Positions 25,669-29,958 of a DNA stretch of 64,000 bases are shown here, in pieces (the first letter of the stretch is position 1; every line of letters starts with the position of its first letter). Made by a program: the position numbers and the translations under genes. Source of the stretch: Lactarius indigo (Eukaryota; Basidiomycota; Agaricomycetes; Russulales; Russulaceae); contig JAFKAC010000179.1 of the NCBI GenBank assembly GCA_025766275.1, positions 1 through 64,000 of the forward strand. The letters are read 5' to 3'. Below the pieces are notes generated by a model. That model was not told where the DNA came from. It ran no database searches and saw only the letters and a program-made list of their open reading frames with translations.

Positions 25669-28600
25669 TCAGAGCGCGGTTTCGTAGGCGTCATCTGAGA
25701 GAGGCATGAGCCTGGAGGGACCGGGCTTAGGACGAGTCTTGGAAGATTTCTTGGACTGGGTAGTAGAGGGCCTTGAAGAATCGCGAGAAGAGCCTGGATC
25801 GAGAGGCTGGGAGTCATTGGCTCTGCGGCGGGCTTGCTTCTTGGCGGGAGGCTTGTTCTCTACAAAGCGGGAAAGAAGAGGGAAGGGAAGAAAATCATTA
25901 ATAGGAGCAAGAGGACGAGGAAAGGAAGAGATACCTGGGGAGGAGGGTGCGGGATGCTTTCCAGCATCAGGGGCACCTGAAAAAGGATGAATAAAGCGAG
26001 AGAGAAAAGGAGATAGACGGACGAGGCGAAGAGGGAGAACGGGTGTCAAGGATGTCGTCATTGTCTCCGGCTAGAGGAAAAGGAGGGTTGAAGAAGGAGG
26101 GAACATGAGAGGAAGTAAAGTGAGAGGAGAGAGGGGAAGACGAACGAATGAAGGAGTCATCAACGAGGGAGGCTGAGAGAAAGGTAAGAATGGAGAAGAA
26201 GAGGGGGAGGACGGGAGATGGAGAAGGAAAGGGGACTGACAGCGGGAGGAGGTCGGGAGGATAGGGGATTTGGAGATACGTTGCGGAGGGTCTGGAGATG
26301 ATGGAGACCAAGTGCGGGTGGGACGTCTTTGCCCTGGTGGAGGAGTAGAGGGACAATTCGGACTGGGAGACTGGTCGCGTGATGGTATGTCGTGGAGCTC
26401 AGCAGGAAGGGAAGGGGTGAAAGAGGAGGAAGGAATGGTGGTCTTGGAAGGAGGAACATCTGGGCGAGTGGCTACGGACTGTAGGATGGGCGACAGATTG
26501 TAACCGAGCTATAGAAGATGTGAGAGAGATAGGGAGCGAAAAACGAAAAGTACCTCGGCACGATATTCCTCTGAAACAGCGTGAGGCTTCCTGGGAATGG
26601 AGGGGATGGGAGCAGCAGCCATGTCGAATGGATCGTCACATGTGGCATCGTCGCCATAGTGTTCGATGCGTGCTTTATTTTTATACATGATCTGGAGAGA
26701 TGAAAAGGAGGTGGGCAGCGGGTGGAGAGGGAAGAGAAGTGAGGAGAGGACGACTCACGTCAGCAAGACGCGTGATAAGTTGATGGGCGATAGTTTCGAT
26801 GGCGCCAGGGGGTGCTTCAGGATCTGAGCAAGTGAGGTACTTACACTTCTCGAGGGACTGAATGATTGGCTGAACGGGATCATTTGCGTCTTTGGAGAAT
26901 TCGGCATATGCCAACTCCCATGGCCCCACAAAGTCCTCCAATTTGTAAGTGACATCGGAGCCCGACTTGGAGCCGCTGGAGAGACCGTCGGCGAACTCCC
27001 AGACATGACGAACGGATTTTCCTGGACCAGAAGAGATATGACGGACAGAGAGTCCGACGAAAAGAGTATGGAGTTCGGCCCTGAGGTGGGAAGCGCTTGG
27101 ACATGTATCGAGAAGGCGAGCTCTATACTGGCCAATGAGAGCAGACTCGACTGTGACGGCGAGGGCGATGAGCAACCAGTCACGGGGCCTATTACGGGAT
27201 GCCGGGTTCCATGGCAAGCCACTCATAGAGAGGAGACGAGAACCTCTATAGGTGGAGAGACGATGATTGCGCGTAAACTCCCCCCTAGAAGTATTCATGA
27301 GTTTGAAGATTGTGATATATTCCTCGCAGAACTGGTCTTGAGTCCATTCGACAGCGGCAAGAAAATCCTTGACGGCAAGAGGCACGCGAACCTTTGGCAC
27401 AGTAGAAGAGTCGCCGGACTTTGATCGCTTTTTGGAAGACTTTGAGGTCTCATCATCTGTGACGAGAATAGATTTGAAAGCCCCCAAATCTTTGACGAGG
27501 CCCCTGGCGCTGACATGCTTCAAGAAATGGGTATCCATCTGGGCGATAGAAGTGGTCAAGTGAGAAAATAGGATACGAACGATCTATAGGACGACAATCA
27601 GTCGTTGCGGTAGATATTTAATAAAACGGTGATACGCTACCTTCCTGCGAACACCCATTTCATTGGTTTTCAGAAGAATGTCAGAAGTTGCCGTTGTCAA
27701 GGCTGCATCGAAAGAGTCGTGAATTGTGTAGAATTTTGCACTAAGTTTAGGGGCCCAGGACACACAAGCCCCAATCCATGAAACGGCCTAACAAAAGTAA
27801 TGGTGTCAGTTGAACGTACAAGAAACTGAAACGGAAAGATGCCGCGTATCCTCGATGTGGATATACGCGGCGTATATTGGAGTCCAAAACATGCCACGTA
27901 TCCTGAAGTCCATTATACGCGGCGTGTTTTGATGTCCAAAACACGCCGCGTATATCCACATCGAGGATACGCGGCATGTTTTGGAGTCCAATATACGCCG
28001 CGTATAATGGACTTCAGGATACGTGGCGTGTTTTGATGTCCAATACACGCCGCGTATCCTCGATGTGGATATACGCGGCATGTTTTGGAGTCCAATACAC
28101 GCCGCGTATAATGGACTTCAGGATACGCGGCGTGTTTTGATGTCCAATACACGCCGCGTATCCTCGATGCGGATATACGCGGCACTCTTATATGATGAAG
28201 ACAGTTGGTCGCTAGGAACAGTGCTCACCTCGGACAGTCCTCTGCGATACTTCGTGGCAAGCTGGTGGACAGCGTAGATAACACTCGCAGTCCCAAGTGG
28301 TATGGGGAATGAGTATCCGTTCATTTGCCAAATCATGGCATATGAGAAATACTCTCGACTGTATTGCGGTGCCATGTCCGATTCCTGGAGGACTTTGTCG
28401 ACGTCTGATTGGTATCTCGTGAAGCGGTTGATATTGTCCGAGTTGGGGAAGAAGAGAGAATTGGAAAACGTGGTGGCGGAGTCGTCCTCGCCCTTATAGT
28501 TATCGATGAAACATTTGTCGATTTTTCCGAGAAGATCTTCGTTCCACGAGCTTGCATCTCCTCGCCCTTTGAACGCATCTATCATCCCCAGCGTTTTGAA

Positions 28601-29958
28601 CTTCGCTTGGACTTCTGTAGGATCCTTTGAGTCCAACATCTCTGTGGCCAGATCGTCGATGGTCTTTTTGTCAAGAGGCGGTTGGTTCGGGTTGGCCACA
28701 CGCTCAAGCATCTCGATGCTTTCGATCAGGAACTCGGAGATGAACTGTCCATTTGTTAGTGCTGTGAAGCCGATTACAGTCACTGGTCCTGCTTACCCCA
28801 CCGTGTGCATCGAGCATCCTAGACAACGTTGACACTTCGAACCATGGTGCGTGTGTGTAGTGTCGACGGATCCGTGACGCCATTACGAGTCCGAGCGCGA
28901 ACGAGGGGACAGAATATAGGCGTCGATGTCTCGGAGTTTCTTTCGCCTCTTCGGCTTTCTCCTTGCACAACGTCGCTTTCTCTCGTGCCATCTTTGTGAA
29001 TGTCAGATAAAGAATGCTTGCGTCTAGGTCGCTGCCTTTGTCTCGCGTGCGACCCCGGATGTCTGCCTCGTACGCGTCCTTCAATTCGTCTATGACTTCT
29101 AGTAGAAGCTCTTCTTCCGTCGCCATTCGGTTTCCTTTCGTCTCGTTTCTCGACATGAACCGGTAGATCGCCGTAGCTAGATCACTCCTGTTTTCCTCGA
29201 TTTTTTCTTTCTCATTGTTAGTTTCCTTTACTTGGCCCTGTTATCCATTTGCTACGCACCTCTATCGTACAGTCGGATCACCCACGCGCTCGAAGCTGCG
29301 ATCTTCTCCTCTATGACCTTCATCGCGTTCTTCATAGCTTCCAGATCTGGGCCGTCTCCTCCTGCTTCGGCTTCCTCACCACTTATCTTCCCGATCTGGT
29401 TCTTCACCGCTTTCAGCTCCTCCGACTTTATCTTCCTGTATTCGATCAACGCCTTGCGTCGGTGGTTTCCGCCCAGCATCCAGAGATTGTTTGTCGCGAT
29501 CGCTTGCTTCCCTTCGTTAGTGAATTCGATCTGCGGTACATCCGAGAGTTTACGCCCGTCTACCGTGGTCAACACCGCTTTCATGTTCTTTACCCAACTT
29601 TTCTTCACCGCTATTTCGATCGCAGCCGCATCCGTGCAGTTGTCCAGATTTTCTGTGAAGCTCATCACTAGGTAATTGACCCACTTTTCGTCTACTTTCC
29701 AGTCGTTGAATTTTCCCCAGAACGCTCCCTTTGGTGGTTCTGTGATATCCATCGCCAGGTAGCCGAGCTCGGCCGCTTTTTTCTTCTCCCGAAGTTCCGT
29801 TTTCTGAAAACCACTGAACTCGTTCCCATCGCGTCCCTCTCCCAGTCCTGTGGTGATTTTCGGACTTATTTTGGCCGCTTTCTGTAATCTCTGTTATATC
29901 ATCGCCGTTGCTGTGTTTGTGTTCTATCATTTTTACTTACCTTTGCTTTGGGTGCCAT
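25669..29958 (-). CDS. large multi-exon protein of unknown function, largely open
   Basis: Exons read by eye: 29958-29941 (MAPKAK), 29890 to about 29274, 29187-28797, 28744-28229, 27787-27641, 27583-26759, 26691-26554, 26508 onward, and final exons ending at 25669. The central joins keep the frame with GT..AG borders. Ordered landmarks are GAFWGKFNDWKVDEKWVNYL, GGNHRRKALIEYRKI, RRHYTHAPWFEVSTLSRML, NGYSFPIPLGTASVIYAVHQ, GLPWNPASRNRPRDWLLIAL and FVGPWELAYAEFS. The C-terminus is Pro/Ser-rich with a likely nuclear signal (KKQARRRAND). The body resembles a family of large agaricomycete hypothetical proteins I have seen before, with no enzymatic motif visible. The second border (donor GTACGA near 29273) is unusual, and the Pro-rich exon 26250-26060 is uncertain. 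One intron (27788-28228) holds the hairpin array. Confidence 0.65.
27788..28228 (-). other. 441-bp intron enlarged by a hairpin array
   Basis: The donor GTGAGC (28228 leftward) follows codon GAG, and the acceptor TTGTTAG ends at 27788. The flanking exons join in phase 0 (GLSE then AVSWIG). The neighbouring introns measured are 51-67 bp. Without the 343-bp array this one would be 98 bp. Confidence 0.7.
27841..28183. repeat. seven-hairpin array, exact 52-bp period
   Basis: Seven 31-bp units start at 27841, 27893, 27945, 27997, 28049, 28101 and 28153. Each has 9-bp arms GCCGCGTAT and ATACGCGGC (one mismatch in units 2 and 4) around a 13-nt core. Only two cores occur: A (CCTCGATGTGGAT) and B (CCTGAAGTCCATT). 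In order they are A, B, A inverted, B inverted, A, B inverted, A (one base different in the last). The 21-bp linkers are themselves imperfect hairpins; the second is GTGTTTT, GATGTCC, AAAACAC. It is not coding on either strand in any sensible way. Confidence 0.95.

Follow-up and report, generated by a model that had tools for sequence, protein, structure and literature searches.

Results

A hairpin array in an intron of gene X

The window analysed here comprises the first 64,000 nucleotides of contig JAFKAC010000179.1 (C89) in the Lactarius indigo assembly GCA_025766275.1 and contains, within a gene that we call X, a tandem array of seven 31-bp hairpins with a period of exactly 52 bp (Table 1). 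In each hairpin, the arms GCCGCGTAT/ATACGCGGC enclose a 13-nt core, and neighbouring hairpins are separated by 21-bp linkers that are themselves imperfect hairpins. Two cores, A and B, follow one another in the order A, B, A', B', A, B', A (the prime marks the inverted direction). An initial examination of the letters without database searches (hereafter the sequence-only reading) had described seven hairpins at exact 52-bp steps, alternating cores in both orientations and imperfect-hairpin linkers, and all of this is borne out by the sequence. It had also taken the arms to be constant, which is true of the five hairpins with perfect arms; in hairpin 2 one base of the left arm is changed, and hairpin 4 shows the mirror image of this change on the right.

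With a gap of 10-20, the arm pattern occurs at 220 places in the 90.3-Mb assembly and its backwards control at none, which excludes a chance origin. With a 13-nt gap, nine places were found in 257 Gb of prokaryotic contigs and none in viral contigs. A scan of the window for known RNA families gave none at gathering scores, and the spurious reading frames of the window array and of one related array with 63-bp units (see below) had no relatives in a protein search.

The sequence-only reading had placed the array inside an intron of a minus-strand gene, and an intron predicted from the sequence, with support from homologues of the gene, agrees with this. Used as a protein-search query, the modelled X retrieved 14 relatives, 13 from Lactarius and one from Russula, with two L. 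indigo proteins (P0007 and P0014) among them. The exon junction predicted for the array intron, GLSE/AVSW, is joined directly in five of the 14 (P0004, P0005, P0009, P0010 and P0013), and seven others (P0001-P0003, P0006, P0007, P0011 and P0012) carry extra residues exactly at this point, the VSW part being lost in P0011. P0008 ends just past the junction and P0014 before it.

A Pfam scan of X gave no domain above cut-offs. The N-terminal domain (29252-29893 of the window, minus strand; homologues P0001-P0014) has a near-invariant LWxLGGNHRR motif and, in one structure model, a weak match to the ParB/sulfiredoxin fold that was not reproduced in a second model. Searched with Foldseek against PDB, the X model returned nothing with E < 0.001, and a ParB-like fold in X is only suggestive.

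Table 1. Gene X and the elements of its hairpin array in the window
Feature	Position	Strand	Remarks
Gene X, part modelled by eye	26681..29958	-	protein family seen in Lactarius and Russula
Exon upstream of the intron	28229..28744	-	ends GLSE
Predicted intron, 441 nt, phase 0	27788..28228	-	GTGAGC...TTAG; holds the array; from sequence and junction in homologues
Exon downstream of the intron	27642..27787	-	AVSWIG...RRK; ends approximate
Hairpin array, n=7, 52-bp period	27841..28183	.	
Hairpin 1, core A (CCTCGATGTGGAT)	27841..27871	+	exact reverse complement of hairpin 3
Hairpin 2, core B, left arm with one changed base (GCCACGTAT)	27893..27923	+	left arm also in C242 hairpin 2
Hairpin 3, core A inverted	27945..27975	-	exact reverse complement of hairpins 1 and 5
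Hairpin 4, core B inverted	27997..28027	-	exact reverse complement of hairpin 2, arm change included
Hairpin 5, core A	28049..28079	+	
Hairpin 6, core B inverted	28101..28131	-	
Hairpin 7, core A (C variant)	28153..28183	+	

Six copies of window-type gene X, six different arrays

The assembly (291 contigs) contains six copies of the window-type X gene, embedded in about 8 kb of surrounding homology that is interrupted in C11. An array is present in the same intron of all six, with seven hairpins in the window, nine each in C11, C167 and C242, 11 in C104 and 13 in C22. The comparison of core order across genomic copies, which the sequence-only reading had proposed, showed that the orders are not identical: all six arrays differ from one another. 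An Rpb1 domain family search found two loci once (C1) and one twice (C57, C202), so the assembly is mostly haploid and the six copies exceed two alleles.

Over 1.35 kb on each side of the array, five copies are 99.0-99.9% identical among themselves and C11 is 95-96% identical to them; of the 123 differences between the C11 and window flanks, 59 are CpG decay in C11. C104 and C167, whose flanks are 99.8-99.9% identical, share the first four hairpin types and then diverge. Hairpin number, order and direction change much faster than the surrounding DNA. Arms are perfect in 47 of the 58 hairpins overall, and in 46 of 49 without the decayed copy C11.

Variation in hairpin order and direction among the copies is confined to the middle of the array, and there are block duplications in direct orientation, e.g. 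of a three-hairpin block in C167 and in the B' runs of C22. The sequence-only reading had considered a shufflon-like process. Shufflons consist of segments that are flanked by short inverted sites and can be found in either direction, and the array resembles them in this respect; both hairpin directions between near-constant arms, with linkers that mostly stay, would also suit some other programmed inversion driven by an enzyme. The frequent switching at each position that characterizes shufflons was, however, not found, as the first three hairpins (A, B, A') and the last (A) keep their type and direction in all six copies. Moreover, block duplications and unit-step length changes account for much of the remaining variation. 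No recombinase or invertase is tied to the array, Pfam scans of X, of pieces of the gene family Y introduced below and of selected window open reading frames showing no site-specific recombinase. We therefore find enzyme-driven inversion, shufflon-like or other, extremely doubtful.

Hairpins and linkers differ in how they turn

The hairpins of the six copies reduce to 22 distinct sequences, including four reverse-complement pairs, and 21 exact inverted hairpin pairs lie inside single copies. The 52 linkers, in contrast, reduce to 24 distinct sequences, none of which is present exactly reverse-complemented. Grouped by their 5-nt centres, linkers show direction counts of 20:3 for the ATGYC type, 19:2 for the nearly symmetric GAGTC/GACTC and 3:5 for GATTC/GAATC. 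As far as such comparisons can tell, it is mainly hairpins that turned in the 52-bp arrays, and a minority of linkers may have turned too.

According to the sequence-only reading, each core had flipped within its own pair of arms. Single hairpins rather than blocks do seem to have turned, given the four hairpin sequences found in both directions, the inverted pairs and the mostly constant direction of the linkers in these arrays; flipping inside fixed arms, on the other hand, is disfavoured by the arm change common to hairpins 2 and 4, where the altered base apparently turned along with the core. This change also occurs in hairpin 2 of C242, and its inverted form in a B hairpin is found only in the window copy, so that, if the change arose once, copying of hairpin 2 into hairpin 4 would be recent.

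Simple block inversion had been set aside in the sequence-only reading on the ground that it would reverse the A-B order. The argument breaks down when a block contains an odd number of hairpins, and although the mostly constant direction of the linkers disfavours simple block inversion for the window array, it does occur in the related 63-bp arrays. In seven of these, 74 of 100 neighbour pairs have hairpin and linker in matching directions, compared with 56.6 +/- 3.0 in shuffles (none of 2000 reaches the observed value), and a coupling this strong indicates that there hairpin and linker blocks invert together.

A second hairpin type and three recurring sites

The assembly also has four diverged X copies (52-53% identity over the exon searched) in which the same intron contains arrays of a different hairpin. 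Its sequence is CCGCGTTTGACCA-CNG-TGGTCAAACGCGG, with variants, and the steps are mostly 43-44 bp. Common to both hairpin types is the 29-bp frame CCGCGT-N17-ACGCGG; the G-C pair that is outermost in the window type lacks conservation in the second (six of 49 distinct sequences). The second hairpin occurs at 349 places in the assembly with up to two mismatches, compared with 220 for the window type. A fifth diverged X copy lies at the very start of C112 and is truncated there. Arrays are present in ten of the ten X copies with both exons. C146 carries an array of each hairpin lineage, at ~14 kb and ~54 kb, with 40 kb between them.

Besides 52 bp, repeat units of 43-44, 61 and 63 bp were found. 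The 63-bp arrays with window-type arms, as well as many second-type arrays, occupy one intron of another gene family, Y. The intron edges are RHFH followed by GTAAGC and QHFH followed by GTGAGT, and the next exons, SYQAKF and AYHAKL, are 50% identical. Among the matches listed, at least 26 Y loci have both flanking exons, C274 being left out with Y at both contig ends; 14 introns, seven per lineage, were read, and each contains one hairpin or more. For C146 and C213 the exon match is limited to the upstream Y exon; C268 has just one hairpin, and the edge of its upstream exon is damaged. The gaps between the exon matches exceed the shortest by approximately 0, 2, 4, 6, 7 and 10 units of 43.5 bp at 15 second-lineage loci (off by at most ~0.3 unit), and by approximately 0, 1, 2, 3, 5 and 7 units of 63 bp at 11 window-lineage loci. 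In the window lineage, the Y exon downstream of the array contains one TAG in ten of 11 loci, perhaps an unrecognised intron and perhaps decay. At C274:1-1081 and 257357-258437 the same Y gene stands at both ends in opposite directions, as inverted ends or an assembly palindrome would produce.

The third site, Z, is intergenic as far as seen. Z of the window lineage forms the middle of a 491-bp palindrome (C14:103407-103897, 98.4% self-complementary), and in the two Z sites of the other lineage that were read the array lies beside related sequence around ACAATAAAACATAT. This palindrome, with its centre on nested hairpins and its full extent of ~490 bp measured in C14, has similar counterparts in C11, C15, C29, C33, C56, C68, C121, C220 and C242, and some Z copies have degenerate hairpins further out. 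X and Z are 86 kb apart in C11 and 93 kb apart in C242. At L068, L098 and L099 (C146, C28 and C213), a Y-type array adjoins half a Z palindrome, as if intervening DNA had been deleted there or inserted in the other copies. Within a lineage, arms or stems are common to X, Y and Z; in the window lineage, X cores differ from Y/Z cores. Linkers are site-specific.

The distribution bears on two other explanations. Mobile hairpins of the foldback or miniature inverted-repeat transposable element type could insert into introns, but the arrays placed among the matches listed are all at X, Y or Z (at ~41 kb in C109 by spacing only and in C28 by array type only), and the same intron is occupied in diverged paralogues. 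At the window array no target-site duplication was seen by eye, and the flanks GGAAAGAT and ACTCTTAT differ. We consider this origin very improbable. A role at the RNA level, in which the transcribed intron would fold into one long double-stranded hairpin and so supply small-RNA silencing or alter X/Y splicing, would agree with the presence of arrays in introns of two genes and with the folding energy of the intron RNA (-265.9 kcal/mol vs -126.3 +/- 5.7 for 100 shuffles, z -24); we nevertheless rate it as unlikely. Selection on hairpin direction for a special RNA fold was rejected, random directions folding equally well.

Array pieces in gene models of other Lactarius species

Two deposited gene models, P0006 of L. 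pseudohatsudake and P0011 of L. hatsudake, contain what appears to be translated intron. P0006 has four 9-residue peptides, in three frames, that are translations of CCGCGTTTGTCCA-NNN-TGGACAAACGCGG with starts 44, 44 and 44 nt apart, and P0011 has one peptide that is a translation of CCGCGTTTGTCCA-NNN-TGGACAAACGCGG. One such peptide fixes the eleventh pair as T-A; the commonest in L. indigo is A-T. At least two deposited models contain translated pieces of arrays of this kind, so that the models of this family need correction. The L. tabidus model P0012 shows, at residues ~664-774, a tandem repeat of some other type in this X intron.

Palindromic repeats pose a problem for assembly, and contigs C89, C104 and reversed C167 start at the same base, so the array might be suspected to be an assembly artefact. 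It is found, however, in six contigs, with arrays of the other hairpin in four paralogues, and in a gene model from another species' assembly, which leaves an artefact scarcely conceivable.

Discussion

The array is a real and unusual feature, a palindromic minisatellite with flipping hairpins at recurring sites of a multicopy locus, with hairpins specific to each lineage. The sequence-only reading knew of no fungal repeat of this kind; searches of the open-licence PMC literature, judged by titles and abstract openings, yielded no description of such arrays. The most probable explanation, in our opinion, is a hypervariable palindromic minisatellite in an intron, one of a family at three recurring sites (X intron, Y intron and Z) of a large multicopy X/Y locus, that varies by the mechanism below and has a role in cis. 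The observations to be explained are the kept position, arms that differ by lineage, linkers that differ by site, array lengths that step by about one unit, and the occurrence of hairpins in either direction. Unit number would change through gain or loss of whole repeats by unequal exchange or slippage. Direction would change when the polymerase switches template between inverted arms and re-copies a single hairpin inverted, which would also keep the arms matched; in the 63-bp arrays, inverted blocks would be copied too. The 29-bp palindrome CCGCGT-N17-ACGCGG would be kept as a cis element of the locus, with hairpin direction and number close to neutral. The position stays the same although each lineage has replaced the sequence, which suggests that the arrays are a module acting in cis within a multicopy X/Y locus not described before, and palindromic arrays conserved in position and replaced in sequence, in introns of two gene families, would not be expected of neutral minisatellites.

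Several points weigh against this explanation. In the 52-bp arrays, the coupling of hairpin and linker direction is marginal when judged by linker centre (68 of 104 pairs; shuffles 62.8 +/- 2.8, with 113 of 2000 as high) and absent when judged by the whole linker (59 of 96 pairs; 854 of 2000 shuffles as high), which leaves the mix of events in these arrays uncertain. Being a CpG transition, the arm change seen in hairpins 2 and 4 may also have arisen twice, by independent mutations. The assignment to X, Y and Z covers the arrays among the matches listed, not every array, and the array in C28 is Y-like with no Y exon match. When the peptides of three foreign introns were tested in general for compatibility with palindromes, the result fell short of convincing, the observed score being reached by 18, 41 and 12 of 300 shuffles. 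Shared arms could come from descent and conversion with no function involved, and the mechanism of variation is one that we infer from sequence alone.

That mechanism is probably already known. Template switching between inverted repeats has been described to invert spacers and homogenise arms in yeast genes (PMC8604942) and to invert loops in ribosomal RNA genes (PMC8794818). As in these cases, the arms of the array are paired and matched and the enclosed sequence inverts; the described cases differ in being single hairpins in ribosomal RNA or yeast genes with loops of a few bases, compared with 9-bp arms, 13-nt cores, tandem arrangement and perhaps turning arms in the array. Inversion between retained arms was observed here (four hairpin sequences in both directions, no linker exactly so), as was arm matching (47 of 58), the cause of which we infer. 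The arrays would document template switching as it happens naturally in the nucleus of a eukaryote, with dozens of marked hairpins per genome and copies more than 99% identical to compare.

Small plastid inversions provide another parallel, since loop sequences there flip between short inverted arms at stem-loops; those are single loops in the plastid, and here arrays in the nucleus. With minisatellites (variable number tandem repeats) the arrays share tandem units within the ~10-100 bp range (43-63 bp), copy-number differences by whole units (among X copies and Y introns, within one assembly) and changes that are fast relative to the flanks. They depart from minisatellites in that the unit hairpin is a perfect or near-perfect palindrome in either direction, and in that sites are held in diverged paralogues while the unit sequence is replaced.

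A bolder form of the proposed cis function, compatible with the minisatellite explanation, is that the arrays serve as recognition sites. The palindrome would be bound by a protein of the locus (X, with its possible ParB/sulfiredoxin-like N-terminal domain) or by a host factor, hairpin and trans factor would co-evolve in each lineage, and linkers would drift. ParB-parS is a partition system with palindromic sites, and the likeness lies in palindromic sites within a gene whose product may have a ParB-like fold; in the present case, however, the sites are in fungal introns and the fold match is weak and not reproduced. We regard recognition as possible but tentative. If the arrays were binding sites, an unrecognised multicopy element in ectomycorrhizal mushrooms would be exposed. 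Distinctly unlikely, in our estimation, is the further step that the X/Y/Z locus represents a large element of Russulaceae, selfish or mobile and not described before, spreading or partitioning with a ParB-like protein, with arrays as its lineage-specific, co-evolving recognition sites and flipping as a harmless by-product when palindromes are replicated. If true, the arrays would be a eukaryotic nuclear analogue of partition or iteron arrays.

Surroundings of the array

A telomeric location was rejected: the assembly has no exact run of five TTAGGG, and at 16 contig ends no TTAGGG and one single CCCTAA were found. The ends of C14 and C121 share sequence with the window at 59.4-59.8 kb; this was not taken as linkage, because the shared sequence adjoins a Plavaka transposase match. 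The window is transposon-rich between 9.8 and 60 kb, with Plavaka at 9.8-10.4 and 59.0-59.4 kb, a Tc5/DDE_1 type at 30.7-32.2 kb, reverse transcriptase and integrase at 37.9-40.4 kb and a Copia gag at 43.6-46.2 kb. A cyclin is located at 50.4-51.0 kb.
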